In this document: piece by piece, positions 6,094 to 26,161 of the stretch | Layout: each line of letters opens with the position of its first letter | How positions within the stretch are numbered: the first letter of the stretch is position 1 | Virus record (IMG/VR): IMGVR_UViG_3300044701_004080 | Span: 1-29,362 of that record | Length of the DNA: 29,362 nt | Direction: 5' to 3' (one strand) | Origin: a virus | The notes under the pieces: model-generated | The model's database searches: none | Told to the model about the DNA's origin: nothing | What the model saw: the letters and a program-made list of their open reading frames with translations, nothing else | Position numbers and translations under genes: made by a program

Positions 6094-6747
6094 TTATTCA
6101 ACGGGAGAACCCCATTGTAATGCTTTAGAAATGTTAGGAAAATGCTCAACAAATATTTTTTTAATTTGCTCTGCTATTAAACGATGCTCTAATTGAGTGT
6201 CTGGATTTGTTCTTAAATCTATATAATGTATCCAACTCCTTACAGATCCGTTCATATACAGTGTTGATTCTGTGCTCAACGGTAAAATCATTCTTGCACA
6301 TTCCTTAGCTGCTCCTTTATTTAAAAGATTATTATACAACCTAAGACCATCTTGCAAATACTCTTTAATGGAATTTATTTCTTCTTCATTTAAATCCAAA
6401 ATTTCTGTACTTGATTGTCTATTTTTTTCTGCTTGTTTACGAATATCAAATGAATGTATGTTAGTTGCTGCGCTATATCTTTGACTAAATTCTTGAAAAC
6501 TAAAGCTTCTATGTCTTAAAATTTGAGCAGCTATGGCTCTAGAAGTTGTTATTTCAACAGCAACATTTACCATTTCAAAAGGAGACCAGTGTTTATGGTC
6601 TATTAAATATTTTAATAATTTAGGTCCAGTTTCTGTGTTCAACTGGTTTGATGGATTTGATACTCTTGCACAATAACTTATTAAATCTTCTGCATTAAGA
6701 AGTCCTTCAACACATGGTTTGGTAACGCTTATTAATTTTACTGACAT
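6094..6747 (-). CDS. thyX: Flavin-dependent thymidylate synthase ThyX
   Basis: ThyX makes dTMP from dUMP using methylene-tetrahydrofolate, FAD and NAD(P)H, supplying thymidine for phage DNA. The 217-residue length is typical. The diagnostic RHR-x7-S motif is present at residues 78-88 (RHRSFSFQEFS), followed by QRYS. The C-terminal ESTLYMNGSVRSWIHYIDLR segment (about 159-178) matches the conserved RN..R/H..R substrate region. The ATG at 6747 overlaps the end of the DpdA-like gene by 10 bp. Together they occupy the interval between polymerase and uvsX where T4 carries its own nucleotide-modifying genes (42 and beta-gt). Confidence 0.96.
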   Translation of the reverse strand: MSVKLISVTKPCVEGLLNAEDLISYCARVSNPSNQLNTETGPKLLKYLIDHKHWSPFEMVNVAVEITTSRAIAAQILRHRSFSFQEFSQRYSAATNIHSFDIRKQAEKNRQSSTEILDLNEEEINSIKEYLQDGLRLYNNLLNKGAAKECARMILPLSTESTLYMNGSVRSWIHYIDLRTNPDTQLEHRLIAEQIKKIFVEHFPNISKALQWGSPVE

Positions 6748-11545: not shown

Positions 11546-12313
11546 CTAGACTTTCAACGCTTTATCCCAAATAACCAATTGCAAACGTGGAGAAAAGTTT
11601 ACATGCATTGCTTTAGCATATTCGGCTACCGCAGCTGCGTTTTCTGAGTGCTCTTGGCGTGAACCACAGCAAGGCATAAACCAAATTCTACTTTTTGGAA
11701 CTCTAATACCGTGTTCATCTTCTACATATTTTCTCCAAATTTCTTCTATATCTCTATCCGATGTAATAACGAATTTAAACCCTGAATTGTTAAATACATG
11801 CCATTTCAAAACATCTGGTTTATAAGTCTTTTCTTCTGGGTCTCCATTTGTTGTTAATTTTGGTGATGTTGTAAAAGATGCTCCTATTTTGGTTATCCAT
11901 TCTGGATCTGGCATAATAGTCGCATTAGTTTCAAAATCTATTATAGGTGTAAATTTATATCTAATCATAAAAGCTTTGATAAACTTCATCAATTGCTTTT
12001 GTTGGATAATAGGTTCTCCACCTGTTAATTTAAAAATAGCACCTGCTTTTAAATGTTCAATATAATTGTTTTCTTCCATCATTTGGAAGATTTCCTCAAA
12101 AGTCATTTTATTTTTAACTGACCAGGAAATATAAGAATCACATCCATTAGGAGAGTCTGGTGAAGACCATGCATTACAAGTCAAATTACACATCGACAAT
12201 CTCATAAACACTGAAGGTTTGCCTACAAATTCACCTTCTCCTTCTATGGTGTAAAAAACTTTATCATCGCTTAAAAACAAGCTTTCTTCTTTAATATCAA
12301 TATCCATATTCAT
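11546..12313 (-). CDS. queE: QueE-like 7-carboxy-7-deazaguanine synthase (radical SAM) with altered cluster motif
   Basis: QueE is a radical-SAM enzyme that contracts 6-carboxy-tetrahydropterin to 7-carboxy-7-deazaguanine. In this 255-residue protein YTIEGEGEFVGKPSVFMRL (21-39) matches the family N-terminal signature, and LTGGEP (about 96-101) is the SAM-binding GGEP motif. The Fe-S cluster cysteines are unusual: Cys42-x3-Cys46-x11-Cys58, where most radical-SAM proteins have CxxxCxxC. The pattern looks like CNLTCNAW...CDS with about nine residues inserted before the last cysteine. The QueE call stands on the rest of the protein and on queD in the same gene string. ATG at 12313, with a second ATG two codons in; a sigma70-like promoter lies just upstream. 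Confidence 0.87.
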   Translation of the reverse strand: MNMDIDIKEESLFLSDDKVFYTIEGEGEFVGKPSVFMRLSMCNLTCNAWSSPDSPNGCDSYISWSVKNKMTFEEIFQMMEENNYIEHLKAGAIFKLTGGEPIIQQKQLMKFIKAFMIRYKFTPIIDFETNATIMPDPEWITKIGASFTTSPKLTTNGDPEEKTYKPDVLKWHVFNNSGFKFVITSDRDIEEIWRKYVEDEHGIRVPKSRIWFMPCCGSRQEHSENAAAVAEYAKAMHVNFSPRLQLVIWDKALKV

Positions 12314-12319
12314 GATTAA

Positions 12320-12347
12320 ATTATATACGATTTGTGTCTCTAGTCAA
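12320..12347 (-). promoter_or_regulatory. Candidate sigma70-type promoter for queE, possibly leaderless
   Basis: On the minus strand TTGACT (12347-12342) and TATAAT (12325-12320) are separated by 16 bp, close to the bacterial housekeeping consensus. The ATG of queE begins 7 bp after TATAAT, so transcription would start at or next to the start codon, giving a leaderless or nearly leaderless message. The -35 element also lies in the gp46 stop region. TATAAT-like strings are common by chance in DNA this AT-rich, and a Bacteroidota host would use different promoter elements, so this is only a candidate. Confidence 0.4.
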
Positions 12348-12352
12348 GAGAC
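12336..12352. other. Small inverted repeat at the gp46/queE junction
   Basis: Arms GTCTCT (12336-12341) and AGAGAC (12347-12352) form a 6-bp stem with a 5-base loop, spanning the gp46 stop codon and overlapping the candidate queE -35 element. There is no T-run after it in the transcribed direction, so it is not a typical terminator. It could be an operator or a chance palindrome. Confidence 0.35.
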
Positions 12353-14158
12353 TAATTCCGTCTTACCATTTATTTTTTGTAATAAAACTACATGGTCTAT
12401 ATCCGCTTTTAAGGTTTCTTTATTATGTGATACTACATATACACATTCTTTATAATTCTCTGTTCTTTCTTTTAAAATTTCTAATATTTTATTAACCCCT
12501 TTTGCATCTAAAGCAGAATCGAATAATTCATCGTACATGCTTAATGAAAACGAGGTTCCTGATTGGTTGCGAAGGATGTCTTGAAACATAAAAAGTATAG
12601 CTAAATCTATGCGTTTTCTTTCTCCACCACTAAAATTAAAATAAGAACATTCTTTACCCTTTTCATTGATTATGGTTTCTTCAAAAGTTTCATTAAAATT
12701 ACAAACACAAGGAGCTTCTAACGTATTTAAATAATGATTAAGCTTTGTGTTTAACAAATTTAACATTTTTTTGATAATAAAAGTCTTAACGCCCTCTTCG
12801 GATACAACAAACTTAACAGTATCTAGGATTGACATATGTTTTTGTATTTCCTGAAGTTCTTTTTCGGTTGCATCTTTTTTTGATTGGGTTTCTTTGAATA
12901 GAACTTCCATAGGATCTATTTCTTCTTCTATATCCTTTTTTTCTTTTTTTAACTCTACCAATCGTTCGTTCAAATGGTCTAAAGATTTTGAATCTGAGTT
13001 TAATTTTTCTATTTGGGTTTTTATTGACTGGATGTCTTTATTTAAAACATTTTGTAATGAAGCAATTTCTCGCTTTTTACCAAATATTTTTTCAAGATTT
13101 GTTGTATATTCTTGTAAAATTTGTTTATTTTTAATTAGTTCATTTTCAATTTGTTCCAATTGTTGTTCTACTTCAACATGGTTATAACCTTCAAAAGGTC
13201 TTTTACACAATGAACATTCACCTTGCTTATTGGATATGTTAGACTTTGTCTGAGTCAAATCTGCAATTTTTGAGGAAATTTCTTGTACACTTTGCTGTTG
13301 GTTCTGTAGTTTAGTTTCTATTTGAGGTAGTATTTCATCTTCTAAATTTTTAAGAGTATTCTCTTTTTTGGTAATATCTTCTTGAAGAATTTTTACACGA
13401 TTTTTAATTTCATCTGTGTCTATTTCTGATATTTCTTTAATTTTATTTTCAATTCCTTTAATTTTTTCTAAAATTGAATTAATTTTGTTTTGCTTAATTA
13501 GTTTGTTTTTTTCTATTTGAGTTTGGTATATTTCTAAATTTTTTTGATATTCTATAAACAAAGAGCTTAATTTGGTATTTTCTGTTTTGACTTCATTATA
13601 ATCTGCTCTGGCTTTTAATAACATTTCACTAAAAATGTTTAATTGTAAAATTCCTTCTATAAATTTTCTTTTATCTACTTTCTTTTGTGCCATGAAAGGC
13701 AGAGTATTATTGGCGGACATTACTACCGCATTTTGAAAAACTTCTTCATTTGCACCAATTAATTCTTTAATATGCTCATCTGTTTTAGGCATTGTAGACA
13801 GAGATATGTCTTCGCCGTTTAATTTTAAACTTAACTTATTTGGTTCTAAGCTTCTCGTTACATTGTATTTTTTAAAAAAATCGCCAGACTCTACAGTAAA
13901 ATCTAAACTTACTACACATTCTTTTTTTGCTTGATTATGTAAAATTTTATCTTTTTTAATGTCTCTTAATGTTTCTCCAAATAATGCCCAGTATATGGAT
14001 TCTATAATTGAACTTTTTCCTACACCATTGCGGCTGTCTTTATCTTTATTTTCTCCGGTTATTACTGAAATGCCGGATTTAAAATCTAATTCAATCCCTG
14101 GATCTCCTATTGAAAGGAAATTTTTAACTTTTAATTTATCAAAGATAACTTTTTTCAC
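12344..14158 (-). CDS. 46: Recombination nuclease subunit gp46 (SbcC/Rad50-like ATPase)
   Basis: This is the SMC-like ATPase partner of gp47 that resects DNA ends for recombination-dependent replication and host DNA breakdown. It has 604 residues (T4 gp46 is 560). The Walker A region has an expanded loop, GENKDKDSRNGVGKSS (35-50). Two long coiled-coil arms (about 190-310 and 325-445) flank the zinc-hook CSLC (315-318). The ABC signature is FSGGERKR (509-516), Walker B MYDELFD (541-547) and the H-loop VVSHNKE (575-581). Its partner gp47 is about 13.5 kb upstream, whereas 47 and 46 are close neighbours in T4. The predicted start is a GTG at 14158. Confidence 0.95.
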   Translation of the reverse strand: MKKVIFDKLKVKNFLSIGDPGIELDFKSGISVITGENKDKDSRNGVGKSSIIESIYWALFGETLRDIKKDKILHNQAKKECVVSLDFTVESGDFFKKYNVTRSLEPNKLSLKLNGEDISLSTMPKTDEHIKELIGANEEVFQNAVVMSANNTLPFMAQKKVDKRKFIEGILQLNIFSEMLLKARADYNEVKTENTKLSSLFIEYQKNLEIYQTQIEKNKLIKQNKINSILEKIKGIENKIKEISEIDTDEIKNRVKILQEDITKKENTLKNLEDEILPQIETKLQNQQQSVQEISSKIADLTQTKSNISNKQGECSLCKRPFEGYNHVEVEQQLEQIENELIKNKQILQEYTTNLEKIFGKKREIASLQNVLNKDIQSIKTQIEKLNSDSKSLDHLNERLVELKKEKKDIEEEIDPMEVLFKETQSKKDATEKELQEIQKHMSILDTVKFVVSEEGVKTFIIKKMLNLLNTKLNHYLNTLEAPCVCNFNETFEETIINEKGKECSYFNFSGGERKRIDLAILFMFQDILRNQSGTSFSLSMYDELFDSALDAKGVNKILEILKERTENYKECVYVVSHNKETLKADIDHVVLLQKINGKTELVS

Positions 14159-14169
14159 AAGTTATTATT

Positions 14170-15735
14170 TTAATATATTTTTGCAAAATGTTCACGCCAG
14201 TAATTATATGTTTTGTAATCGTCTGGAGTACCCCAACAAATATAATTTTTAACTTCAAATACTTTCACATTTAAACCTTTTTTAATGTTTTGATTTAAAA
14301 CATCATCTACATAAAACTCTCCATTAGTAGTAATGTTTTGTTTATAATTTTGTTGTAAACCTTCTATAAAATATTTTGCCTTTCTAAAAAACATAGTTCC
14401 TATAATTGCATGAGTTTTTAATGGATCATCGTATATAAACTTTTTACAAGATACATGATGTATATTATCGTTTTCATCCACATCTAACCAAGCATACATA
14501 TTTGGATTCACTTTACTAGTTTGGTTGTTACGAAAAGACCAAACTATAATATCTACATCCTGATCATCTACCAAAGTCTTGTATTTGTCTGCATCGTAAT
14601 AAGCTCCATTATCACAAGCCGTAATCATTATAGGTTTTTCAAGATCTTGTTTGCTTAATTTTAAAGCAATTTCACAAGTACATGCCTGTCCACGGGTTAC
14701 TTCTTTTATAGGAACTATATTACATCTGTTGTAATATTCGGCTAAAAACATTCCGTGATCTATGTCTTTAAAATGTTCTTCCAAAACCGCAAAAGTGTGA
14801 TGTTCACAAGATGGTAAACATTGCGCAGCTCTAATAACCATAGGTATTCCGTCTACCTCTATTAAAGGTTTAGGTTTATCATATCCTTGTTGTTTAAACC
14901 TATCTCCTCTTCCTGCCATTGGCATAATCATGGTTGTATCAGGAGGGTTTGGAACTATTTTTTGACCTTGTTTTATGTTTTTGAAATAAATTGACCAGCC
15001 TTTATATATTTCCAAGTCATAAGGAGTTCCCCATTGCAACATCTTTTCAATTTCAAAGATACCTACTTTTAATCCATCTCTTACTAAAAGATTATAAACC
15101 ATACTAACATAATATTCGCCTTTTAGGTTTAAATCTAAATCCATCAATTCTTTAAAATATTTTTTTAATATACAACCAGATTTAAAATAATATGTTCCGT
15201 TAGAAGCATATTCATCCATTTTATTATCTGTAAAGGGTTCTTTTTCTTTGATTTGTTCTAGAATGTTATTTGTTTCTTTACAAAATGCATAATTGTCACC
15301 TCCTAACATATGTGGGTGAAATCCTTTGTAACAAGGAATTGCTCCGTCATAATCTTTAACAAATTCTAAAAACTTTTCAAAATTCCAAACAGTACCATAA
15401 TCACAATAACTAACTATAACTTCGGCATCATCTTTTATAATATCTTTAATTTGATAAACCGCATCTACAGGTCCTTTTCGATTTTCATTAGAAACTGTAA
15501 CAATTTTACATTCTGGGCAAAGGGATTTTAATATAGAAACTATATTTGTTTCTTCTACATGCTTTTCATTGCAAATAAAGGTAACGTCTTCAATACCCGG
15601 AAATATATCTAAAACGTGTTTAACAATAGGATAACCATCAACCTCTATTAAAGGTTTAGGATCTTTATAACCTGCTTCTACAAATCGTTTCCCTATTCCA
15701 GACATAGGGATTATTAACTGTATTTTTCTCTGCAT
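14170..15735 (-). CDS. Tandem two-domain sugar-phosphate nucleotidyltransferase
   Basis: This 521-residue protein contains two homologous NTP-transferase domains in tandem (about 1-250 and 265-521). Each starts with the nucleotide-binding loop (PMSGIGKRF at 10-18, PMAGRGDRF at 272-280) followed by KPLIEVDG, and each repeats a GEYYV/GEFYVDDV segment and a WGTP segment near its end. Such enzymes couple a sugar phosphate to a nucleotide, giving an NDP- or CDP-sugar. SYCDYG in domain 1 and TACDNG in domain 2 supply the metal-binding Asp. Both domains could be active with different substrates, or one may be structural. It is the last cassette gene before gp46 and follows the GDPD-like gene by 1 bp. 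Confidence 0.88.
   Translation of the reverse strand: MQRKIQLIIPMSGIGKRFVEAGYKDPKPLIEVDGYPIVKHVLDIFPGIEDVTFICNEKHVEETNIVSILKSLCPECKIVTVSNENRKGPVDAVYQIKDIIKDDAEVIVSYCDYGTVWNFEKFLEFVKDYDGAIPCYKGFHPHMLGGDNYAFCKETNNILEQIKEKEPFTDNKMDEYASNGTYYFKSGCILKKYFKELMDLDLNLKGEYYVSMVYNLLVRDGLKVGIFEIEKMLQWGTPYDLEIYKGWSIYFKNIKQGQKIVPNPPDTTMIMPMAGRGDRFKQQGYDKPKPLIEVDGIPMVIRAAQCLPSCEHHTFAVLEEHFKDIDHGMFLAEYYNRCNIVPIKEVTRGQACTCEIALKLSKQDLEKPIMITACDNGAYYDADKYKTLVDDQDVDIIVWSFRNNQTSKVNPNMYAWLDVDENDNIHHVSCKKFIYDDPLKTHAIIGTMFFRKAKYFIEGLQQNYKQNITTNGEFYVDDVLNQNIKKGLNVKVFEVKNYICWGTPDDYKTYNYWREHFAKIY
14855..15660. repeat. Internal direct repeat marking the nucleotidyltransferase duplication
   Basis: An identical 20-bp string occurs at 14855-14874 and 15641-15660 and encodes KPLIEV in both domains of the two-domain nucleotidyltransferase. 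The matching nucleotides as well as residues suggest that the domains arose by tandem duplication within the gene. Confidence 0.6.
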
Positions 15736-15736
15736 A

Positions 15737-16183
15737 TTAAAATATGCAATAATCAGTACAAACTGCGTACACTTTATCTTTATATAGATTTATATGTTGT
15801 ATATCTTCCAATCCTAATAAAGGAATAATACATCTATCATTTAAATCTAATCTTATATCATGAACCCATATATGTCCTGTGCTCATGATAACATAAGGAT
15901 CTTCAACATGACAAAAATGTTTAATATGTTTTTTATCAGATAAAATTTGAGCTGAAGCTATATCTTTACAATGTAACCACAAATAATCTATTCTTTTTTC
16001 TAACCAATTAAAATCAACAGTATAATCACTTGTGTCATGACCTAATTGAAATAAACCTTTTTCATACCTAACATCAATTTCAACTTCATAACCTAATTGG
16101 ATAGCACTGTCAATATAAGAAGGTCGATTTTCTAAATCTGGTTTACGACCTTTTAAATTACCTCTATGTGATATGAATTTCAT
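15737..16183 (-). CDS. Short GDPD-like (glycerophosphodiester phosphodiesterase fold) protein
   Basis: This 148-residue protein has the active-site pattern of the GDPD/PI-PLC superfamily: FISHRGN (His6, Arg7), then GYEVEIDVR (Glu35, Asp37) and QLGHD (His49). True GDPDs are about 240 residues and form a complete TIM barrel, so this is a minimal or truncated form. Similar short proteins occur in bacterial capsule and surface-polysaccharide loci. It might cleave or transfer a glycerophosphate or related phosphodiester in the cassette; the substrate is not readable. ATG at 16183 overlaps the HAD gene stop (ATGA), so the two are probably translated together. Confidence 0.75.
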   Translation of the reverse strand: MKFISHRGNLKGRKPDLENRPSYIDSAIQLGYEVEIDVRYEKGLFQLGHDTSDYTVDFNWLEKRIDYLWLHCKDIASAQILSDKKHIKHFCHVEDPYVIMSTGHIWVHDIRLDLNDRCIIPLLGLEDIQHINLYKDKVYAVCTDYCIF

Positions 16184-16473
16184 AAATTTTCTATATTAAT
16201 ACTTCTATCATCTATAAACAAATCGTAATAAGGTTTATCCACTCTTAGTTCATGGTGTTTTGCTCCCCATTCATTTAATTGTTTTTTAGTTAAATCATAC
16301 CAATTAATTTGTTTACGACTACCTCGAGCAGTCCAGTAAACAATTGTATGTCCTTGATCATACAATTTATTAATTTTTTCTATGTTTTCCTTAATAGGAA
16401 TTGCATCTTCATACTTGCGAGTAGGTGGAGTTTTGCAAATAGTTTCATCAATATCTACATAATAAACTTTCAT
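16180..16473 (-). CDS. Small HAD-family phosphatase
   Basis: This 97-residue minimal HAD hydrolase has the nucleophile motif DIDET (Asp7, Asp9), motif II in YWTARGS (about 46-52, Thr48) and a C-terminal KPYYDLFIDDRS (about 80-91) supplying the conserved lysine and acidic residues. It has almost no cap domain, so it likely acts on an accessible substrate such as a sugar phosphate or a protein- or lipid-linked phosphate. Small HADs of this type are frequent in capsule loci. ATGA overlaps at both ends tie it to the aldolase-like gene upstream and the GDPD-like gene downstream, which suggests consecutive steps in one pathway. Confidence 0.85.
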   Translation of the reverse strand: MKVYYVDIDETICKTPPTRKYEDAIPIKENIEKINKLYDQGHTIVYWTARGSRKQINWYDLTKKQLNEWGAKHHELRVDKPYYDLFIDDRSINIENL

Positions 16474-17129
16474 AATATTTTTTGTCTATATATTTCTTTT
16501 TTGTCGTTGGCTATTTTTTCAATTTGTTTTTGTGTTAAAACAGAAGGTAAACCTAAAAATTCTGCTCCCATAAGAATTTCTGATGCTTTTTCGCAAATTT
16601 GAGTAGCTATTAAACATTCTTTAAAAGTTTTACCACAACATATTATACCGTGGTTTTTTAATAAAATCAATTTGGGAAATTTATTATATTTGTCTTCAAA
16701 ATTTGTAACATTTTTTTCTATAGCTTTTTTTAATTCTATTCCAGGGTGAGCATATTCAACTAAACATGAAATTTCTCCATTAAAAACTACCTGATCTGGA
16801 AATAAACGATCTCTAACCAATTCTTCTGTATGAACCGAGCATAGTATTTTTAAAGTATTAACTGGATGTGTATGCGCTACAAAATTAATATCTTGTTTTT
16901 GCAAAAGCCAATTATGAAAATTAGTTTCCATACTTGGTTTTTTTGAGAAATTTGTTAACTGTTTACCTTCTTTTAAAGAACACTTAATAAGATCTTTTTT
17001 AGATAAGGTTTTTAATTCTGTTCCACTGGCTTTAATATAAAAATTATCACCAATTTTTTGAGACACATTACCTTCGGTTCCGACAACAAAAGGAGACAGA
17101 AAGTGAGCTAGTTCTAATAAATCTTTCAT
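16470..17129 (-). CDS. Class II aldolase / ribulose-5-phosphate 4-epimerase-family enzyme
   Basis: This 219-residue protein of the zinc-dependent aldolase/adducin family includes GTEGNVSQK (17-25) and KASGTEL (33-39) for phosphate binding, Glu68 as likely catalytic acid, the zinc histidines in AHTHP (His86, His88) and the third one in LKNHGI (His160). This matches the Glu/His/His/His arrangement of fuculose-phosphate aldolase and L-ribulose-5-phosphate 4-epimerase; MtnB-like dehydratases share it. The substrate is presumably a ketose 1- or 5-phosphate. It follows a gene with a phosphoribulokinase-like domain by 1 bp, so the two may work on the same pentulose phosphate; that link is inferred. 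Confidence 0.9.
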   Translation of the reverse strand: MKDLLELAHFLSPFVVGTEGNVSQKIGDNFYIKASGTELKTLSKKDLIKCSLKEGKQLTNFSKKPSMETNFHNWLLQKQDINFVAHTHPVNTLKILCSVHTEELVRDRLFPDQVVFNGEISCLVEYAHPGIELKKAIEKNVTNFEDKYNKFPKLILLKNHGIICCGKTFKECLIATQICEKASEILMGAEFLGLPSVLTQKQIEKIANDKKEIYRQKIL

Positions 17130-17130
17130 A

Positions 17131-18579
17131 CTAACTTAATGATAAAATAAAGAAAATTATATAATCGTAAAAATTATCTTGTTTAAATTTATTTTCTCCT
17201 AATAAATTTGAAGATTGAAATTTTAAGAAATTAACGCAATTAAAATTTTCTTCTTGGCTATAGGTAACAGTATACGGAATGTTATAGGATGTTAATTTAG
17301 CTAACACTTCTGTTAAGCTATATTTTTTATTGATTAACAAATTAAGATGTACATTTGGTTCATTTTCTTCTAAAAAGGATTCATCATTTGTATAAAAATT
17401 TACAATAATGTCTGATTCTTTTCTTTGTGGGTATATATACTCTAAATAATCTTTGCTTCTCTTGTCTATTTGATTCTTTACTTCTTCTACAGAATATCCT
17501 CGATTTGTTGAGTCTCTCAATATTTTCCACCTAGTTTTTAATTTAATATCTGTATCTAAAAATATTTTTAAATTATAAACACCTTCGTGTTTATTATAAA
17601 AACTATGTAAACCGCAAACTATTACGTTATCTGATTTATTAATCTCTTCTGGAGATGTAAATTTACCGTTGTTGTGGTCATAATTAACATGATAAACATT
17701 TTTGCCTATTTTTAAATCAAAAATGTCTTTGTTCATTTTAGATATATAATTTGCTTCTGGGTTTAAATGTGTATAATTTTTCCAATTATCATCATGTCTT
17801 TCCCATTTATGGTATCGGTCACATTCTAAAGTAAAAGAATCTGAAAAATATTTCTTTAAAGATTCACTTAATGTAGTTTTTCCAGACCCAGAATCACCAC
17901 AAATAGCAAATATATTACAAGTAGATAATATTACATTATAATCAAGTTTAATTAATTTATACGAAATTTTATAATCATTTAGATAGTAATATAAAAGAGT
18001 TTCAGATATTGGTGTGTTGTATTTTGTAACTAATCTATTTAAATGCTTATAAATTTCAAAATATAAATCCATGCTATGTGAAGACCCATAAGCAAAAATA
18101 TCACAAATATGAGGATCTGTTTGATTTTTTAATTTTGATCTATCAACTACGCTTTCTTCTGGAATGTATATTTGACCCTTTTCTATTTCAGAAAAAACAT
18201 TTTCTTCTATAATGTTTAAATCTGGTCGGTATTTTATAACTAAGTCATAAACCCCTTTGTGGGTTTCGTTGCATAATTTAATTTGATTCAATTTATAATA
18301 TTTTAACCAAAGGTTGTATAAATTGTTTAACTTTTTGTCTTCGTGGAGGTCTAAATTATCTTCTTCTAAAATGGCTATTGGTTTTAAAATTTCTTTAATT
18401 AATTTAATATCTTCTTCTTCATGAGCTGGATTAAAATATTTGTCGTCTTTTAATTCATTTTTTGTAATGTGTATATACACATCAACAACATCGTATTTGT
18501 CTATTATTTTTTGTTTAATTAAAGGTAAATTTACTTTAAACGATCTTAAATAACCGGATATTATTAGAGCTACTCGCAT
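17131..18579 (-). CDS. Glycosyltransferase-like / phosphoribulokinase-like fusion protein
   Basis: This 482-residue protein is read from ATG 18579, 1 bp after the upstream stop; a TTG three codons earlier is less likely. The N-terminal part (about 1-215) starts MRVALIISGYLRSF and contains IKYRPDL and DIFAYGSSHSMD, features I associate with poorly characterised surface-glycan transferase-like proteins. From about 222 a P-loop kinase follows: GDSGSGKT (228-235), ECDRYHKW, YDHNNGKF, IVCGLHSFY, and WKILRDSTNRGYSVEEV with R...DY.EYI.PQ. This order closely tracks plant/cyanobacterial-type phosphoribulokinase. About 80 unassigned residues follow. It probably phosphorylates a pentulose or a related sugar or nucleoside. 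Uridine kinase is the alternative, but the GLH, WKI.RD and RG motifs favour PRK. Confidence 0.82.
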   Translation of the reverse strand: MRVALIISGYLRSFKVNLPLIKQKIIDKYDVVDVYIHITKNELKDDKYFNPAHEEEDIKLIKEILKPIAILEEDNLDLHEDKKLNNLYNLWLKYYKLNQIKLCNETHKGVYDLVIKYRPDLNIIEENVFSEIEKGQIYIPEESVVDRSKLKNQTDPHICDIFAYGSSHSMDLYFEIYKHLNRLVTKYNTPISETLLYYYLNDYKISYKLIKLDYNVILSTCNIFAICGDSGSGKTTLSESLKKYFSDSFTLECDRYHKWERHDDNWKNYTHLNPEANYISKMNKDIFDLKIGKNVYHVNYDHNNGKFTSPEEINKSDNVIVCGLHSFYNKHEGVYNLKIFLDTDIKLKTRWKILRDSTNRGYSVEEVKNQIDKRSKDYLEYIYPQRKESDIIVNFYTNDESFLEENEPNVHLNLLINKKYSLTEVLAKLTSYNIPYTVTYSQEENFNCVNFLKFQSSNLLGENKFKQDNFYDYIIFFILSLS

Positions 18580-18580
18580 A

Positions 18581-19390
18581 TTACGCAAAATTTCGTGATT
18601 TTTCTAAGAGTTTATATTTAGAAACGATATTTTGGTATTCAACAGAACAATCTTTGTAAGACTGTCCAAATTTTGTTACGGGCTTGTGTGGGTCAAATCT
18701 AACAAAAGCTCTGTGATGGGTAATATGAAAAAATTTATATTCGGATACACATTTAAAATAACCACATTCTTCTAAAGAAGTTTTATATAAATTACATACT
18801 TTTAAATTTTCACAATATTGTTGAACTGGAAGATCTTCCATGTCCCTATAAGAAGTCTCTTTAAAGTTTTCTACCATTTTTGTAAAAGATTTAACATTAG
18901 CTATACACGGATTTACATTATATCGATATGTGGTTACACCTTTTTGTTCACTAATATATAAGGTTTCTATAGCTGGTGTAGTTGTTACATCCCATTTGTT
19001 GATTGGTAGGTATAAATCCACTTTTGTAAATTCTGGACCGTTATGTCCACTTGGCTGTAAATTGATTCTATCTATTTGATTTAATTTGGCATAGTCGACG
19101 AGTTTATTTAAAACTTGTATGTTTTTATTTAATAAAATATCAATTTCATGCGAAAAAAGGATGTAATCACTTTTTATATTAGTTAATGTTTCATAAAGCT
19201 TTGCACCATATTGCTGATTATCTTTATATAATAATATTTGTTCATAATGAGCAGACCATTTTTCTAAATCAATATCTGATTCATTAATGATAAGAATTTT
19301 ATTTTTAAAATCTGTTAAATAATCCGTAGCGATTTCTAAACAATCTAAATTGTCTGTGTGAGAATATACTACGAAAGGTATGGTCAACAT
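18581..19390 (-). CDS. Putative glycosyltransferase (GT-A-like), weakly supported
   Basis: This 269-residue protein is read from ATG 19390, 1 bp after the preceding stop. A longer frame from a TTG at 19399 would overlap that stop. A Rossmann-like start (IPFVVYSHTDN) and the segment DYILFSHEIDILL, with acidic residues where GT-A enzymes keep DXD, suggest a glycosyltransferase-like fold. YRDMEDLPVQQYC and FFHITHHRAFVRFD are other distinctive stretches. I cannot place it in a family. Context within the cassette supports a glycan role. It has no signal peptide or membrane segment, so it would act in the host cytoplasm. Confidence 0.65.
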   Translation of the reverse strand: MLTIPFVVYSHTDNLDCLEIATDYLTDFKNKILIINESDIDLEKWSAHYEQILLYKDNQQYGAKLYETLTNIKSDYILFSHEIDILLNKNIQVLNKLVDYAKLNQIDRINLQPSGHNGPEFTKVDLYLPINKWDVTTTPAIETLYISEQKGVTTYRYNVNPCIANVKSFTKMVENFKETSYRDMEDLPVQQYCENLKVCNLYKTSLEECGYFKCVSEYKFFHITHHRAFVRFDPHKPVTKFGQSYKDCSVEYQNIVSKYKLLEKSRNFA

Positions 19391-19391
19391 A

Positions 19392-20174
19392 TCAATCAAC
19401 TATTGACCAATTCGGTAATTCTTTAGGCATCGTACCAACACATCCGCCTAATCTATCTTCATGGCGATGCTCTTTTTGAATAAAAGGGTATAATTTAACT
19501 AGAACGTTTTGTAAAATACTGTTTTTTGCATCTATTAAGTAACAAAATCTCCCCCATAAAGAATCTATTAAATGTATTTCTTTTGCGTTTTGTAATACTT
19601 TAATAAATTCAAACATATTAGGCGTTATACCACCTATGCTTACCACTTTAAAATCGCTTTGAGGGTTTATTGGTCTTTCTTGAGATTCATGAACTAGAAT
19701 ATAATTTTCTCCATGTTCTTTTATAAAATTATCATAAACTTTTTCTTCTAATTCAAAATCTCTTTCAAATTTGAAACAATCTATTAAAACTTCATAATTT
19801 ATATCATAACCAACAAAAAACGCTTCAACAAAATGTTTTGTTCGGCCTTGAGTAGGAACAAATACTCCTCTATATTTGTCTCCCGGAGTTCGAAGGTTAT
19901 CATAATAACCATGAAATAACAAATCGTATTTTGATAAATCAACCATCTGTAAAATTGCTTGGCTATGTATGTTAGATAAAGGAGTGTATAACACACCCAC
20001 ATTTGGTTTATTGCGACAATAAAAATCCACATATCCACTAGCATCTTCTCTCATTATAACTGTAAGTTTCTCATACATTGGAGCATAATAATCAATCAAA
20101 GACAATTGATTTATAATATCCGTAAATCCTTGATGAAAATACAATAGGCCTTCTTTTTTTTCTGGAGTGTTCAT
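19392..20174 (-). CDS. Unknown protein of the glycan cassette, possible GT-B-like transferase
   Basis: This 260-residue protein has no firm family. The N-terminus (LLYFHQGFTDIINQLSLID) looks like the start of a nucleotide-sugar-type Rossmann domain, and the C-terminal half has YILVHESQERPI and KEIHLIDSLWGRFCYLID, reminiscent of GT-B enzymes of the heptosyltransferase sort, where a conserved serine or threonine region contacts the donor. It lies between the GT61 gene (ATGA overlap) and another transferase-like gene, which is the main argument for a glycan function. A 1-bp gap separates its stop from the next ATG. Confidence 0.6.
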   Translation of the reverse strand: MNTPEKKEGLLYFHQGFTDIINQLSLIDYYAPMYEKLTVIMREDASGYVDFYCRNKPNVGVLYTPLSNIHSQAILQMVDLSKYDLLFHGYYDNLRTPGDKYRGVFVPTQGRTKHFVEAFFVGYDINYEVLIDCFKFERDFELEEKVYDNFIKEHGENYILVHESQERPINPQSDFKVVSIGGITPNMFEFIKVLQNAKEIHLIDSLWGRFCYLIDAKNSILQNVLVKLYPFIQKEHRHEDRLGGCVGTMPKELPNWSIVD

Positions 20175-21385
20175 ATTATTTTTTTAAAATTTTCTAAATC
20201 TAATTTCCAAGCACAATTAAGTCCGTTATCTAATTTTTCGCAATCCTTTTTAGGTATAAATTTCTGATTTAAATTCATTTCACTATTCCACCCTGCAACG
20301 GGTCTCTCGGTATAAGATACAAGTAACAAATCATCTTTTATATCTTGCACTTCTCCTACAATATCTCCTGATTTTACCCTCATATATTTTATCCATTCAC
20401 CAGGTTCTGCATGTTCGCTTTTATCATAATAAACTGTATCTTTACCGATAAAACTGTATTTAAATCTTTCGTGTTTTTCTAAAAATGTAGGAGAAATAAG
20501 AATTTTTAATTTTGCATCTTTGTTACTAAACAAAGCATTAACAACCCCTCCACCTATAGCTCCTATAATGTTTTTAGCCTTACTAAAAGTGAGTAATTTT
20601 TCTTCTGTCGACATTTGTTCTGTAAAAATTTCTGTATAATTTTTACTTTTCAGATATTCAACCAAATCATCTTCGTTTATTAATTTTCTACGAGTAGTAT
20701 AATTGGTGCCTATATTTGAATTGTCGTTGTGTATCCAAGTCCTGCGTGAAATGTATATATTTTCTGGTGTTTCTTTATCTAATTTAATATTTGAAACTAT
20801 TTGTTTATAAAAATTGTATATTTCTTCTCTAGGGGGCAGATTTGAATCTATATCATGGGTATAAGAATTAGATATATAAATTTCGGAATATAAAACTTTT
20901 TTTTCAGCTATTATTATATCTTCTTTACTAATGTTTAGTAATTCTAAAAATTCTAAAACAAATTTATAAAATTCTTGTTTACTTTCATTAGGATAATTCA
21001 TTAATAACTTTAAAGAAGGTATTTTATTTTTTAAATAGCGATACGATATTAAATAAGGCAATGTGTCGTATACAAAATGAAAATAATTGTCTGTGTTATA
21101 TAAAAAGAAAAAAACTGGTGTTGGTTCATCTTTTAAAAAAACAAAGTCATTTTTAAAATCTTCATCATTTAAATTTTGAGAAATCTTATCTAAAGACATT
21201 ATTTTTTCTTTTAAAGGTTTATAAGTAACACCGCCAAACAAATCTCTAATTAACACATTAGGATAATAAGTTGAACTCCCTACTAACACTGCTTCCGAGA
21301 GTTTGTATATATTAATTTCCCTACCATTTAAATCTTTAGCTAAAAATGGTATTTTATTCGGTATTTCTGTTAAATCTTTAACCAT
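20171..21385 (-). CDS. GT61-family glycosyltransferase
   Basis: This 404-residue protein carries the GT61 (DUF563) pattern. NTDNYFHFVYDTLPYL (about 96-111) gives the conserved N..H...D.LP segment. IYISRRTW is followed by RRKLINEDDLVEYL, and the C-terminal half carries TFSKAKNIIGAIGGGVVNALFS, the usual AxxxxxxxGxxxxN signature. GT61 includes transferases for xylose, GlcNAc and arabinose in plants and animals, as well as bacterial capsule enzymes, so the sugar cannot be predicted. About 100 residues after the core (about 310-404) are unassigned. ATG at 21385 overlaps the preceding gene by 8 bp. Confidence 0.82.
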   Translation of the reverse strand: MVKDLTEIPNKIPFLAKDLNGREINIYKLSEAVLVGSSTYYPNVLIRDLFGGVTYKPLKEKIMSLDKISQNLNDEDFKNDFVFLKDEPTPVFFFLYNTDNYFHFVYDTLPYLISYRYLKNKIPSLKLLMNYPNESKQEFYKFVLEFLELLNISKEDIIIAEKKVLYSEIYISNSYTHDIDSNLPPREEIYNFYKQIVSNIKLDKETPENIYISRRTWIHNDNSNIGTNYTTRRKLINEDDLVEYLKSKNYTEIFTEQMSTEEKLLTFSKAKNIIGAIGGGVVNALFSNKDAKLKILISPTFLEKHERFKYSFIGKDTVYYDKSEHAEPGEWIKYMRVKSGDIVGEVQDIKDDLLLVSYTERPVAGWNSEMNLNQKFIPKKDCEKLDNGLNCAWKLDLENFKKII

Positions 21386-22064
21386 TGTGTGTTATACCTA
21401 ATTTTGCTAAATCATTTATCCAATCACCTGTAAATTTATTATCTTCATCAATAGGTTGACCTACAAAATAAATCCCATCTCTATTAAAGCTACGCGCCGA
21501 AGGGAATGAATCCATAGCATGTTCTAAATAATCTCCTTTTACGACTTCATGATAATAATCATATAAAAATCTTTGGTCTATACCTTTAGTATCACTCGCT
21601 TCTTTAACGAATTCTGTCATGGTGTATTTGATATCATTAAATACATTTCCCTTTCCACCCCACATTCCAGCTAAAATAGGGAATTCTGGTGTAAAATGAT
21701 AAGGATGGTCTTTCATTATATGATAGGTTCTATCCGATTGAATCCAAGCATCTACAGCTTCCTTTTCTCGAAATGAAAGTCTTGAATCTGTGTCTCTAGA
21801 TATAAATCTTTCAACCCCTTCTTCACTTAAAGGTAAAAATCTATATAATGTTGAATAAAATCCTCCAGGTTTTGTTATTTTTTTTATTTCTACAGAAGAG
21901 TTTATTTTTTTAAGTTCTTCTTCCATAAAATGATCTTCTTCAAACAAATAGAATCGACAAATCCAATCTGGATAAATCGATTGAGCTTTTTTAAGATTTT
22001 CTATAGCTCCTTTTTGGTACATTGGAGCATTGCCAAATAAACTAAATGTTATTAATTTCTTCAT
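21378..22064 (-). CDS. GT-A-type glycosyltransferase with DTD motif
   Basis: This 228-residue protein starts with a Rossmann strand, KLITFSLFGNAP, and the metal/donor motif lies in FISRDTDSRLSFRE (Asp-Thr-Asp, about residues 90-92). AWIQSDRTYHIMKDHPYHF and ILAGMWGGKG further define a family I know as uncharacterised capsule and phage glycosyltransferase-like proteins. It would use a nucleotide sugar in the cytoplasm. ATG at 22064 sits inside the end of the upstream fucosyltransferase-like gene (23 bp overlap). The donor and acceptor are unknown. Confidence 0.75.
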   Translation of the reverse strand: MKKLITFSLFGNAPMYQKGAIENLKKAQSIYPDWICRFYLFEEDHFMEEELKKINSSVEIKKITKPGGFYSTLYRFLPLSEEGVERFISRDTDSRLSFREKEAVDAWIQSDRTYHIMKDHPYHFTPEFPILAGMWGGKGNVFNDIKYTMTEFVKEASDTKGIDQRFLYDYYHEVVKGDYLEHAMDSFPSARSFNRDGIYFVGQPIDEDNKFTGDWINDLAKLGITHNG

Positions 22065-22863
22065 TATAATTAAGATATTCTTTATTGCTTCTTAAATGAT
22101 ATACATTTTTTAAAGATCCTCTGTATAATACAGGTATTATACCGCCATTTCCTGCATGAGTAAAAATTTTATAGCATTTGGATATTATCCTCATAATTGA
22201 TTCAAAATCAACACTCCATTGAACTCTATTACTTTGAGGAAGAACATAGTTTTCGCTAAAAATCATTTCTTCAAATGTAAAAATATTGGGGTTGTATTTT
22301 TCTAAAAATTTATTTTTAAAGTCCAATTCATCAGTTTGAAATAAAATGCGAGAATCTTTATCTAAAATTTTGTCTGTATATTCTATCCACCAGTCAACAG
22401 GTTGTAATTCTGCTTCACGACCTTTATCTGTTCCTCTGTGAAATACTGCTACTGTATTTTCATAATTTATATTATACTTTTGCTCTAGTTGTGTAACTCT
22501 CTGTTGTACAAAATCTGATGGTTGAAAATACGCATCTTCAACCATTTTAACATCTTCCATTTTTAAAAAAGTAAAAGGTATTGCAGTTGGGCACCAATAT
22601 TCAAAATCAAAATCTTTTTCTTTTAATTTTTCTATATTTTCTTGATTTGATTTATAAAGATAAGGGTACAAATCTTCAGTATACCGATACCAATATAAAG
22701 TGTTTATAAATGAAATTTTTTCTGGATATATCTTATAGTTTAACAATCTGCATAAAGAATTGCGAACTTCGTTTATACATGAATAAAACCCAGATTCATG
22801 ATCACCATATAAAATTTTATTATGCTCATCGTAATGGCAATGGGGTAGATATGGTAATTTCAT
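22042..22863 (-). CDS. Fucosyltransferase-like (GT11/GT23-like) protein
   Basis: This 273-residue protein includes VAVFHRGTDKG (138-148), which resembles the HxRRxDK donor-binding motif of GDP-fucose-dependent transferases (NodZ/FUT8 and relatives). It is followed by WWIEYTDKIL...RILFQTDE, similar to their next motif, and by FTHAGNGGIIPVLYRG near the C-terminus. The canonical second arginine is a glycine here, so the donor may differ from GDP-fucose. ATG at 22863 overlaps the preceding stop as ATGA. A GT-B fold and cytoplasmic action are inferred. Confidence 0.62.
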   Translation of the reverse strand: MKLPYLPHCHYDEHNKILYGDHESGFYSCINEVRNSLCRLLNYKIYPEKISFINTLYWYRYTEDLYPYLYKSNQENIEKLKEKDFDFEYWCPTAIPFTFLKMEDVKMVEDAYFQPSDFVQQRVTQLEQKYNINYENTVAVFHRGTDKGREAELQPVDWWIEYTDKILDKDSRILFQTDELDFKNKFLEKYNPNIFTFEEMIFSENYVLPQSNRVQWSVDFESIMRIISKCYKIFTHAGNGGIIPVLYRGSLKNVYHLRSNKEYLNYNEEINNI

Positions 22864-24134
22864 TTATTTGTGGTCGTTGTATTTTTATCAAAAATATAAT
22901 AATGCAGAATTTTATCTATATGTCTTTCTGTTTTTGCTTTTAAACACAATTCTTTTATCCAATGCCAATCTTCAGCCCAAGATATATCTTTAAATTCAAT
23001 TTGTTTAGCTATTTTTGAATTCCACGCACACATATGAAAAGGTTTGCGATAGATAGGCATTCCTGGCACGTATTCTGTGTTTTCATACTGTAAACCGAAA
23101 TATACTATTACAGGCGCATCGGATCCTATTTTAGCTTCTTGATTAAAAGATATTACATCGACACCCGGACACTCTTCAATACTTGATATAATTTCTTTAA
23201 TATAATCTTCTGATATTAAATCATCGTCGTCTAAAAAAGCTAAAAACTTTCCCTCACATGCATTTATCAAGTCTTGTCTTTTGTGCCCAATAGACCTAGC
23301 TTTATTATCCACAAAAGCTAAAATTTCTACCTTTTCTTGACAGTTATTGTCGTTTATTTGTTTTTGAAGTTTATCAAAAATTTCTTTTAATTTTGAAAAT
23401 CTTTCTGGTATACTTGTTATAAGAATTGAAAACAATTTTTTATTGAGCTTATCTAATTCAAAATTTTTAGATTTTCTTTTTTCGTATGTTTCTTTATCAA
23501 CATTATAATATGCTTCATTTCTAACATATAAAGGATCATAAGTTGTTTTTTGGTATACTGGATGTTGGTGTTCTATGATAATTTGCTCTGATTTGTATAC
23601 CTTTTTTAAAATTTGAGAAACTTCTGTAAATTCATTATCACACCATAAGCTTACATAATCTGGATGGTATATATATCCAAACATATCATAATACTTTTTA
23701 CCCATTATACTGAGAGTGTTGATATGATTTTGACCACCATCGTTATACCACAAGACACCATCTAATCTCTTAAAGAAATCATTCATGTCTTTTTTAATAA
23801 CACTATCATACCCATTTACTACAGGTATCATGTCATCAGAAGCTAATAGCAAAATATCCCACCCAGATACCTTTTCCATGTCGGCATTGACTGCTTGTAT
23901 TTTGGTTTTACTTTCTCCAAAAAAATAAACTAATTTAATTCTTTTTTGATATTCTTTTAATCGATTTAAAACTTCTTCATTATTCATACTGTTATCATCA
24001 GTATCTAATGAAATCAAAAACGCCAAACGGCTTGCGTCTGAAGCTTTATTTATATATTCATCAAGAACATTAAAAAATTTCTCTGGTCTTCCTCTAGTAG
24101 GAAATTTTATTAGTAATCTATAGTCTGGTATCAT
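22860..24134 (-). CDS. Two-domain glycosyltransferase (GT-A plus GT2)
   Basis: This 424-residue protein joins two GT-A-type modules. The N-terminal one (about 1-225) begins LLIKFPTRGRPEKF and has LLLASDDMIPV in the DXD position. The C-terminal one (about 233-424) is a compact GT2 domain: FSILITSIPERF, ARSIGHKRQDLI, FLAFLDDDDLIS (metal-binding acids) and AEDWHWIKEL (catalytic acidic region). The C-terminal module parallels the separate 181-residue GT2 protein encoded next to it (SIGSKRNELL, VFVDDDDMVS), so the two are probably paralogues by local duplication. A bifunctional enzyme adding two sugars is possible. ATG at 24134. Confidence 0.82.
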   Translation of the reverse strand: MIPDYRLLIKFPTRGRPEKFFNVLDEYINKASDASRLAFLISLDTDDNSMNNEEVLNRLKEYQKRIKLVYFFGESKTKIQAVNADMEKVSGWDILLLASDDMIPVVNGYDSVIKKDMNDFFKRLDGVLWYNDGGQNHINTLSIMGKKYYDMFGYIYHPDYVSLWCDNEFTEVSQILKKVYKSEQIIIEHQHPVYQKTTYDPLYVRNEAYYNVDKETYEKRKSKNFELDKLNKKLFSILITSIPERFSKLKEIFDKLQKQINDNNCQEKVEILAFVDNKARSIGHKRQDLINACEGKFLAFLDDDDLISEDYIKEIISSIEECPGVDVISFNQEAKIGSDAPVIVYFGLQYENTEYVPGMPIYRKPFHMCAWNSKIAKQIEFKDISWAEDWHWIKELCLKAKTERHIDKILHYYIFDKNTTTTNK

Positions 24135-24135
24135 A

Positions 24136-24681
24136 TCAATAACCGGATGAGGGGTAATAATAATATATTGGTCCTTTAATAAAAACCTCAGTTTTTAATT
24201 TACCTTTCAATCTTTCCGAAAAATCTTGATCTTCTTTATAGTATAGATCGGGGAATCTTACTTCTAAAGCTATTTCTCTTTTAATAGGATTTAAATGATT
24301 AGGACAACGATAATAAATTTCATCTTTTTCAAACCAATGATCAAATTGAAGAGAATGTATAAATTTTTTAGGTCCTATGTTTTTTTGTGTGATTATACCT
24401 TCTATACCACAACAATCCGGTTTATCTTTAATTGCCATTAATATACTCGCAACATAAAATGGAGAAACCATATCATCATCGTCTACAAAAACCACATATT
24501 CACCTTTTGCAGCTTCGAGTAATTCATTGCGTTTTGAACCTATAGACCTTTCTCCGCTATCTAAACTAGCCAACATTTCCACTTCATTGTTGGATTGTAA
24601 TTTTAATACTCGACCAAGATTTTCAAAAATCTGCCTTCTAGATTCTAAGGTACAAGTTAAAATTGATAATTTTTTTGACAT
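24136..24681 (-). CDS. Compact GT2-family glycosyltransferase
   Basis: This 181-residue single-domain GT2-like protein has KLSILTCTLESRR (3-15) as the first strand, ERSIGSKRNELLEAAKGEYVV with VDDDDM as metal-binding motif (about 68-73), PNHLNPIKRE and YYKEDQDFSERL with the catalytic acid region. At 181 residues it is short for GT2 and ends soon after the catalytic region. It is most similar within this window to the C-terminal domain of the 424-residue neighbour. ATG at 24681 lies 1 bp after the upstream GT gene, just past a strong inverted repeat that may affect its translation. Confidence 0.85.
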   Translation of the reverse strand: MSKKLSILTCTLESRRQIFENLGRVLKLQSNNEVEMLASLDSGERSIGSKRNELLEAAKGEYVVFVDDDDMVSPFYVASILMAIKDKPDCCGIEGIITQKNIGPKKFIHSLQFDHWFEKDEIYYRCPNHLNPIKREIALEVRFPDLYYKEDQDFSERLKGKLKTEVFIKGPIYYYYPSSGY

Positions 24682-24682
24682 A

Positions 24683-26161
24683 TTAAAAGTTTACAAGATA
24701 ATGGGTGACATTATCTTGAGAAGATTTGACTTCTAGATATTTTATTAAACTTTTACATTTATTCAATCCGTCATTTTTGTGATAGTCTTCTCCTAAAATT
24801 CCAGATTCATATTCTCTGAATCTTTTACCGTTAGCTAAATGATACTCATTTTCTTTAGGATCATTTAAACGATGGGCATGCGGTACACTAAAAAATTTAC
24901 CGTAAGGATGTTTATACGGATGTAGGTTTTCCTTGACACATCTTGCATATAAATCGTCGTCTTCTTTACCCCATCCATTAAATTCATTACTATAACCATT
25001 GACTTGTTTATAATGTTCTTTTGTAAAAAGAATAACTCCACCCATTATTCGATCTGGTATATTGATATAATTAAATTGACTACAATGACTGCTTATATGA
25101 GAAGGTTTTATCGGGTAACTGTAATCTGATATTTCTGGTATTAAATCTACATCATGAAAACAAACGTAATCTCCAGAGCTTTGTAAAAATCCTACATTAT
25201 TCAAAAGACCTTTATTGAAGGGGTTTTTATTGTTTTGTTCTACTATAATAATTTCAAAGTTTTCAACTTGTGTTGAAACGTATTTTTGCAAAGCTGGTAT
25301 TAATTGGTTTAAAGCTTGTTCTCTGTCTCTATAAGGCACTATAATAGATAATTTTTTATCTTGGTTAATAATTTTTTTCCTGCTGTAATTTGTTTGCAAA
25401 TGTATTAAAGATAACAATAATTTTTTAAGTCCTACATCCGGGATTTCATTTGTAAATTTACCCCATTTTTGTGTAAAATGAGTTGCAGATTTTTGCCAAT
25501 TTTCTTGATACTTTTCTTTATTGGTTATAGAAGAATTGTCACTACTACCTTCAATATCCGTTAAATAATCTTCACTGTTATAAAGGTCTGGAAAATACCA
25601 AAAGGGAGGCGCTACCTTTTTTTGAATTAAATTATAAGCAAAATCTACATGCTCAAAAGCATTAATATAATTTTCATCAAAGTAACCCAATTTTTTAATC
25701 AATTGAGCATTAATATACATAAATGCTCCTTGAGGATTATGATAAAACCCTATTTTAACTCCGTCTGGTTGTTCATGAACATATTTTAAAGACTTCTCAT
25801 TACCTGCTACTTTCTCATAACACAAATGGTGTATACCAGTTGAATTTGCAGCTTTAATATATTCTTCGAAAACTTTAGGGTTTTTAATAATAATATCATC
25901 TTCTATTAAAAATATATGCTCACATCCTAAATCTCTTAATTTTTCAAGCGCTTTGTTTTTAGATTTTGCAACTCCCAATTGTTTATTATTGTGTATAACA
26001 ATTTCCGCGTCTTTAGGGTCTACATATACATTTTCACCGTCATTGACTATAACAATTTTATCTACACAATCTTTCGGAATAGAATCATAAACTTTTTTAT
26101 AATAATCTGGTCTATTATATGTAATAATCCCTATTCCTATTCTTGATGGTACTGTTTCCAT
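24683..26161 (-). CDS. Glycosyltransferase fusion: GT2-like domain plus GT7 galactosyltransferase-like domain
   Basis: This 492-residue protein has an N-terminal domain (about 1-250) that is GT-A type with RIGIGIITYNRPDYY and IFLIEDDIII (Glu87-Asp88-Asp89), paralogous to the 270-residue neighbour. The C-terminal domain (about 268-470) has the hallmarks of beta-1,4-galactosyltransferases (GT7): VPYRDRE (275-281), FNKGLLNNVGF (315-325), FHDVDLIPE (335-343), a GGV.LF..E.Y..VNGYSNEF segment, GWGKEDDDLYAR (396-407) and a possible metal His in PHAHR. All key acids are present. GT7 enzymes transfer Gal, GalNAc or similar sugars. ATG at 26161 lies in the end of the upstream gene (25 bp overlap). Confidence 0.88.
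   Translation of the reverse strand: METVPSRIGIGIITYNRPDYYKKVYDSIPKDCVDKIVIVNDGENVYVDPKDAEIVIHNNKQLGVAKSKNKALEKLRDLGCEHIFLIEDDIIIKNPKVFEEYIKAANSTGIHHLCYEKVAGNEKSLKYVHEQPDGVKIGFYHNPQGAFMYINAQLIKKLGYFDENYINAFEHVDFAYNLIQKKVAPPFWYFPDLYNSEDYLTDIEGSSDNSSITNKEKYQENWQKSATHFTQKWGKFTNEIPDVGLKKLLLSLIHLQTNYSRKKIINQDKKLSIIVPYRDREQALNQLIPALQKYVSTQVENFEIIIVEQNNKNPFNKGLLNNVGFLQSSGDYVCFHDVDLIPEISDYSYPIKPSHISSHCSQFNYINIPDRIMGGVILFTKEHYKQVNGYSNEFNGWGKEDDDLYARCVKENLHPYKHPYGKFFSVPHAHRLNDPKENEYHLANGKRFREYESGILGEDYHKNDGLNKCKSLIKYLEVKSSQDNVTHYLVNF
24694..24718. other. Perfect 10-bp inverted repeat before a gene junction
   Basis: Arms CAAGATAATG (24694-24703) and CATTATCTTG (24709-24718) pair perfectly around a 5-base loop. 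It forms the last codons of the GT2/GT7 fusion gene, ending 8 bp before its stop and 12 bp before the next ATG. Only a short TTTT follows in the transcribed direction, so it is not a canonical intrinsic terminator. It could damp translation of the next gene, be an RNA-processing or stability element, or serve as an attenuator. Confidence 0.6.

Follow-up and report, generated by a model that had tools for sequence, protein, structure and literature searches.

Which product do the five tightly packed enzyme genes at positions 14170 to 18579 of the virus record IMGVR_UViG_3300044701_004080 serve to make? The window, i.e., the whole 29.4-kb stretch of this record that was analyzed, comes from an aquatic virus and is, to judge by its gene content, an incomplete piece of an uncultivated T4-like genome; nearly all of its genes, including these five, lie on the minus strand. 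In the order in which they are read, the five open reading frames (ORFs) encode a fused protein with a phosphoribulokinase (PRK)-like kinase domain, KIN (17131 to 18579); a class II aldolase/epimerase-family enzyme of 219 amino acids (aa), ALD (16470 to 17129); a capsule-type HAD-superfamily phosphatase of 97 aa (16180 to 16473); a shortened GDPD-like protein of 148 aa (15737 to 16183); and a tandem sugar-nucleotidyltransferase of 521 aa, NT2 (14170 to 15735). The ALD/HAD and HAD/GDPD-like junctions are ATGA overlaps, while KIN/ALD and GDPD-like/NT2 are each separated by 1 bp; a preliminary description of the locus had reported five consecutive genes joined in these two ways, and all of its ORFs, coordinates, and junctions were confirmed. 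The start of KIN is placed at the ATG at 18579: the mechanically called ORF opens with TTG at 18588, but the relatives begin at the Met of 18579. We put at roughly 0.5 the probability that the five genes form one module making an activated C5 (pentulose-type) unit for glycosylation, a gene set that was apparently undescribed before.

KIN, examined with Pfam, NCBIfam, and PDB profiles, Foldseek, and an alignment of its relatives, consists of a conserved domain (residues 1 to 215), a phosphoribulokinase-like kinase domain (residues 223 to 404), and a small C-terminal domain. The domain calls of the preliminary description hold in Pfam (PRK, E value of 7e-34, for KIN; Aldolase_II, 1.7e-27, for ALD; NTP_transf_3, 4e-12, for NT2), with the GDPD-like call weak by sequence, and its view of the kinase as PRK-like is borne out by profile searches and structure prediction. 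In NCBIfam, KIN matches PRK07429 at 1.6e-51 and udk at 7e-17; among PDB profiles, the PRK 6hzk scores 1e-46 versus 1e-13 for uridine kinase; and PRK is the best Foldseek match of the predicted fold (2e-21). Phosphoribulokinases of cyanobacteria and archaea head the matching structures, well ahead of the uridine kinases, and a uridine kinase identity is ruled out by profiles and folds alike. In an alignment of 28 kinases, D257, H260, R264, Y303, H305, K355, and R358, as well as the P-loop Gly and Lys, are invariant, and they map to the positions, including the catalytic Asp/His pair, that serve ribulose 5-phosphate (Ru5P) binding and catalysis in phosphoribulokinase (PMC5241800, PMC9978339). 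For residues 1 to 215, the only matches are to DUF7796 (best, 4.5e-5); a profile search of the PDB gave no match for this domain and its predicted fold no identity either, and it may be glycosyltransferase-like.

ALD belongs to the Aldolase_II family according to Pfam, its closest structures are of the FucA type (fuculose-1-phosphate aldolase), and its metal-site His residues H86, H88, and H160 and the catalytic Glu E68 are invariant in 25 aligned sequences. It scores far under the cutoff of every named NCBIfam subfamily among the matches listed, including TIGR00760 (AraD; 33 bits, cutoff 389). The Glu at position 68 is of the aldolase type, L-ribulose-5-phosphate 4-epimerase (AraD) having Asp there. 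Since ALD keeps E68 and not the 4-epimerase Asp, the name epimerase is not favored over aldolase, which qualifies the earlier assignment to the ribulose-phosphate epimerase family. A near relative of ALD occurs alone, without the rest of the set, in the Synechococcus phage S-SCSM2R (L063:7998-8660).

The HAD-superfamily phosphatase, which was aligned with its relatives, carries a DIDET motif and strongly matches a capsule biosynthesis protein (PDB 9iqw, 7e-18); its match to TIGR01689 (EcbF-BcbF; 3e-7, 30 bits) stays below the curated cutoff of 162. In the GDPD-like protein, H6 and R7 (HR-N), E35 and D37 (E-x-D), and H49 and D50 (LGHD) are invariant in the alignment, and a weak match to PDB 3i10 (5e-4) is accompanied by a structure model with a predicted local distance difference test score of 94, the best folds of which are glycerophosphodiester phosphodiesterases at modest scores (Foldseek 1zcc, 1.8e-3; template modeling score, 0.56). 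With 148 aa, the protein is short for a complete TIM barrel. NT2, supported by Pfam and by alignment, shows nucleotidyltransferase matches in NCBIfam and an NTP-binding signature in both halves. A sister cluster without kinase and aldolase, in which a nucleotidyltransferase is accompanied by the GDPD-like protein and/or the HAD phosphatase, was seen in S-CAM9 (L062), in DSL-LC03 (L064), on a Rhizobium plasmid (L147), and in L316, and these three genes may constitute a more general activation unit.

Is this set conserved outside the window? The viral counts given here are among the matches listed, with at most 80 loci per scan, and are descriptive since many contigs are near-copies; scans seeded with ALD and with the GDPD-like protein were added against seed bias, ALD giving loci with an alignment as the query and no match as a single sequence. 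A scan of viral contigs for the N-terminal kinase part gave 57 loci, and in the 52 of them spanning at least 12 kb we found HAD and GDPD in 52/52, ALD and the glycosyltransferase GT61 in 48/52 each, and NT2 in 44/52. Seeding with ALD returned HAD and GDPD in 61/67 loci each, NT2 in 55/67, and the kinase in 40/67; seeding with GDPD returned NT2 in 65/66, ALD in 57/66, HAD in 53/66, and the kinase in 39/66. Besides the window, about 50 viral contigs carry the set. GT61 is its most regular neighbor in phages, and the genes that lie between its members differ from phage to phage. Some viral loci at first appeared to have no aldolase, which was mostly wrong: in 15 GDPD-seeded loci kinase and aldolase are joined in one ORF of about 460 to 490 aa (L283:5476-6879, L275, L290, L296, L269, L272, L306, and others). 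Most of these fusions keep the Walker-B Glu of PRK and adjoin a nucleotidyltransferase of single-domain size. Because such fusions usually unite consecutive steps, kinase and aldolase probably act in sequence.

A scan of cellular genomes with the kinase alignment gave 80 loci among the matches listed. In 46 of the 80, the kinase carries a fused N-terminal extension, long and hydrophobic, for which about 5 to 11 membrane segments were predicted in most of the cases examined. Where such fused-kinase loci span at least 12 kb, ALD, NT2, GDPD, and HAD are all present in 31/38, GT2 in 36/38, and GtrA in 22/38, whereas any of ALD, NT2, GDPD, HAD, and GT2 was found in 0/21 equally long control loci with an unfused PRK-like protein. 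The carriers belong to Bacillota, Pseudomonadota, Bacteroidota, Acidobacteriota, Patescibacteria, and Omnitrophota, besides metagenome-assembled genomes (MAGs) of Obscuribacterales (Cyanobacteriota) and of one woesearchaeon (Woesearchaeota), and the bacterial set is also found in polysaccharide neighborhoods. Thus, the co-occurrence beyond this phage that the preliminary description had proposed to look for is widespread in viruses, bacteria, and one archaeal MAG, and a pathway restricted to phages is rejected.

Profile comparison identifies the phage and bacterial versions of NT2, the kinase domain, ALD, and GDPD as homologs, NT2 being orthologous over its full length to the bacterial tandem enzyme and the GDPD-like protein matching the GDPD of the bacterial cluster at 6e-8. 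The bacterial HAD protein is different: comparison with hhalign gave a probability of 1.5%, orthology is not supported on this basis, and the two look like unrelated subfamilies replacing each other for a presumably equal job. The annotation of the cluster genes in RefSeq agrees on two plasmids. Complete bacterial clusters were observed on plasmids of about 33 kb in 2 of 5,426 complete E. coli genomes (from human stool and a bullfrog); the copies, NZ_CP145712.1 6022-13224 (L146) and NZ_JCAPUP010000005.1, are practically identical, and in NZ_CP145712.1 an IS26 transposase gene lies downstream of the cluster.

S-SM2 and Bellamy, two cyanophages already published, carry NT2, GT61, ALD, HAD, and GDPD in this order and lack the kinase; the records of these phages do not recognize the set as a pathway. 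Among contigs of at least 60 kb, Photo_RC (psbA/psbD) was present in 6/6 kinase-less and 0/23 kinase-bearing contigs of a first batch and in 5/5 and 0/13, respectively, of a second. Since ribulose 1,5-bisphosphate is a product of the PRK that cyanobacteria themselves possess, cyanophages would not need the kinase if the host enzyme supplies this compound. The absence of the kinase in psbA-bearing cyanophages is thus a hint about INTERMEDIATE; it fits, and is consistent with, a ribulose 1,5-bisphosphate intermediate, which is not proof. The nucleotidyltransferase was found in 6 of 292 Cyanobacteriota genomes and Photo_RC in 0/6 of these, so that they give no independent test of the kinase-supply idea.

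What the data show is the five genes, the families to which they belong, the motifs they conserve, and how they co-occur and are fused; from these we infer the reactions, their order, and the sugar as follows. The PRK-like kinase would phosphorylate ribulose 5-phosphate to ribulose 1,5-bisphosphate, on which the class II aldolase would act, most likely altering a stereocenter through aldol/retro-aldol chemistry; the HAD phosphatase would take off one phosphate, the nucleotidyltransferase would add a nucleoside monophosphate (CTP as the donor is a guess), and the GDPD-like enzyme would cleave or rearrange the phosphodiester of an intermediate. The fusion supports the link between the kinase and aldolase steps, and the other places in this order are assigned from enzyme classes. 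In phages, cytoplasmic glycosyltransferases (GT61, others, and perhaps the N-terminal domain of KIN) would use the product to decorate virion or host glycans. In bacteria, GT2, the GtrA flippase, and the kinase-fused membrane domain suggest, by analogy with GtrABC systems, that a lipid carrier takes the product to a glycan of the cell surface. The proposal of a pentulose-derived nucleotide sugar, already made in the preliminary description, has gained support from the fusions, the conserved Ru5P residues, and the missing cyanophage kinase, although the identity of the sugar is still an inference. There is a slim chance that the route has another end: kinase and HAD would leave a phosphate on C1 of the pentulose, the nucleotidyltransferase would add a nucleoside monophosphate, the GDPD-like enzyme would shift the phosphate to the anomeric C2 via a 1,2-cyclic phosphate, and a second nucleotidyltransferase step would give a nucleoside diphosphate (NDP)-2-pentulose, a true glycosyl donor. 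Such a route would account for the membership of a phosphodiesterase and of two nucleotidyltransferase domains in the set.

Several observations count against a simple pentulose route. In KIN, the Walker-B Glu of PRK (EGLH) is replaced by C325; the position is Cys in 118 and Glu in 22 viral ORFs and Ser, Cys, or Thr in many bacterial kinases, Glu being kept in some bacteria, in most kinase-aldolase fusions, and in the unfused PRK controls having the motif. This loss may indicate an altered substrate or metal site. A kinase-domain tree, whose PRK sample consists of archaeal-type and a few other PRKs only, sets the pathway kinases on one side of a branch from ordinary PRKs (81 versus 12 sequences; SH-aLRT branch support, 100), and by this tree PRK and the family are sister clades, the family lying outside PRK. 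In the phage relatives L050, L051, and L055, the N-terminal nucleotidyltransferase half is without the G-x-G-x-R-F signature that the C-terminal half keeps, which suggests a regulatory N-terminal half. To judge from the sister clusters, nucleotidyltransferase, GDPD, and HAD can work without kinase and aldolase, and the GDPD step is without a clear place in such a route. On the ALD tree, moreover, the kinase-less sequences form a single clade that requires one change; the psbA association is therefore a single event, whatever the count, its reading as many independent events is rejected, and shared cyanophage ancestry alone could explain the absence of the kinase.

The Walker-B Glu being gone in most members and the position of the family as a sister to PRK would also be expected if the module is real but its kinase acts on another phosphorylated sugar or polyol, yielding an activated unit of another kind, for example an NDP-alditol or hexulose derivative, that is passed on as a phosphodiester (cf. 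CDP-ribitol and CDP-6-glucitol). The presence of a phosphodiesterase-like enzyme in the set and the capsule precedent of the open-chain CDP-6-fructose/CDP-6-glucitol (PMC10918830) speak for this explanation, which deserves serious attention; we deem it unlikely, as the Ru5P phosphate-binding and catalytic residues are invariant, only phages whose hosts possess a PRK lack the kinase, and no NAD(P)-dependent reductase was recognized in the conserved set. It is doubtful that the bisphosphate is cleaved by the aldolase to one C3 and one C2 unit and that the nucleotidyltransferase activates a small glycerol- or glycolaldehyde-like fragment: ALD resembles fuculose-1-phosphate aldolase and has the aldolase-type Glu and not the Asp of AraD, but ATP would be wasted on phosphorylating a C5 sugar to be cut, and C3 phosphates are already plentiful. 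Some DNA hypermodifications involve kinases, and the window contains queD-like and queE-like genes; a role in modifying phage DNA or nucleotides is nevertheless very improbable, given that the phage set lies among glycosyltransferases and that the bacterial set adjoins GT2 and GtrA, includes a kinase-fused multi-pass membrane domain, and occurs in polysaccharide neighborhoods. Finally, the variation of the intervening genes between phages might suggest unrelated auxiliary genes that are neighbors by chance, an idea that we find scarcely credible since it is contradicted by the co-occurrence from three seeds, the kinase-aldolase fusion, and the spread over many bacterial phyla. Found repeatedly in viruses and in cells, these genes were not brought together by chance.

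How does a module for an activated pentulose compare with known systems? KIN is like the plant/cyanobacterial and archaeal phosphoribulokinases (PRK07429; PDB 6hzk, 9qko, and 5b3f) in its P-loop fold, Asp/His pair, and Ru5P residues, and differs in being fused to other domains, in standing outside the PRK clade, and in its Cys at the Walker-B Glu. ALD shares the metal-site His residues and catalytic Glu of the fuculose-1-phosphate aldolase/ribulose-5-phosphate 4-epimerase superfamily, but it lies below all listed subfamily cutoffs and is kinase-fused in some phages. As in GtrABC O-antigen modification, the bacterial loci have GtrA, a GT2 protein like polyprenyl-phosphate-sugar synthases, and a multi-pass membrane protein; here, however, the membrane protein shares one chain with a PRK-like kinase, and genes for donor synthesis belong to the cluster itself, whereas the five-gene phage set is without GtrA, GT2, and the membrane transferase. 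The CDP-6-D-glucitol pathway of C. jejuni HS:5, which consists of two enzymes, a nucleotidyltransferase and a reductase (PMC10918830), likewise serves a surface polysaccharide and has its nucleotidyltransferase act on a ketose phosphate, but it is without the set of kinase, aldolase, GDPD, and HAD. The sugar clusters of S-SM2 and Bellamy share NT2, GT61, ALD, HAD, and GDPD and differ in having no such kinase gene.

The gene combination was not found described in the open-licence literature searched, which is no proof of absence as subscription journals were outside its coverage, and the same search, with the same coverage, revealed no route to an activated pentulose. The earlier reading of the genes as a possible new phage pathway is qualified in two respects: phages did not invent the set, which bacteria and an archaeal MAG also carry, and its four nonkinase genes were already present, though unrecognized, in S-SM2 and Bellamy. 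What sets this proposed nucleotide-sugar pathway apart is its uncommon mix of enzymes and its uncommon fusions, and its chemistry is our working hypothesis.

In the window, the five genes form one edge of an approximately 13.5-kb glycan island that lies between a gp46-like recombination ATPase, a T4-like replication gene recognized by sequence reading only (12344 to 14158), and a gp47-like nuclease (27706 to 28755; Pfam Metallophos and matches to SbcD/gp47 of T4-like phages), both on the minus strand. The gp46 and gp47 proteins of T4 work as a single complex, and the island splits their two counterparts. The rest of the island (18581 to 27709, minus strand) holds, according to profile matches, more glycosyltransferase genes, including GT61, GT2, and GT7 types, and unassigned ORFs; the GT61 glycosyltransferase at 20171 to 21385 (minus strand; Pfam, 1e-16) is a candidate user of the module's product. 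Elsewhere in the window, a queD-like gene (4058 to 4540) matches TIGR03367 at 1e-10, below the cutoff, and is the sole clear profile match of three deazaguanine candidates, the others being a radical-SAM queE-like gene (11546 to 12313) and an ORF at 6738 to 7601 that by eye resembles a tRNA-guanine-transglycosylase-type protein. Together they perhaps point to deazaguanine DNA modification.

Xylulose is listed as one of the surface-polysaccharide sugars of E. coli (PMC10072801), and the N-glycans of chloroviruses contain xylulofuranose (PMC9614988). For such sugars, the set represents a concrete, testable candidate route to an activated pentulose, and the NDP-2-pentulose route, if true, would explain how xylulofuranose- or ribulofuranose-containing glycans are made. 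If the pentulose module proves true, a PRK-type enzyme, and perhaps ribulose 1,5-bisphosphate, would be used outside carbon fixation in a pathway common to phages and many bacterial phyla; and if cyanophages do rely on the kinase of their host, the substrate of RuBisCO would be diverted to glycans during infection.

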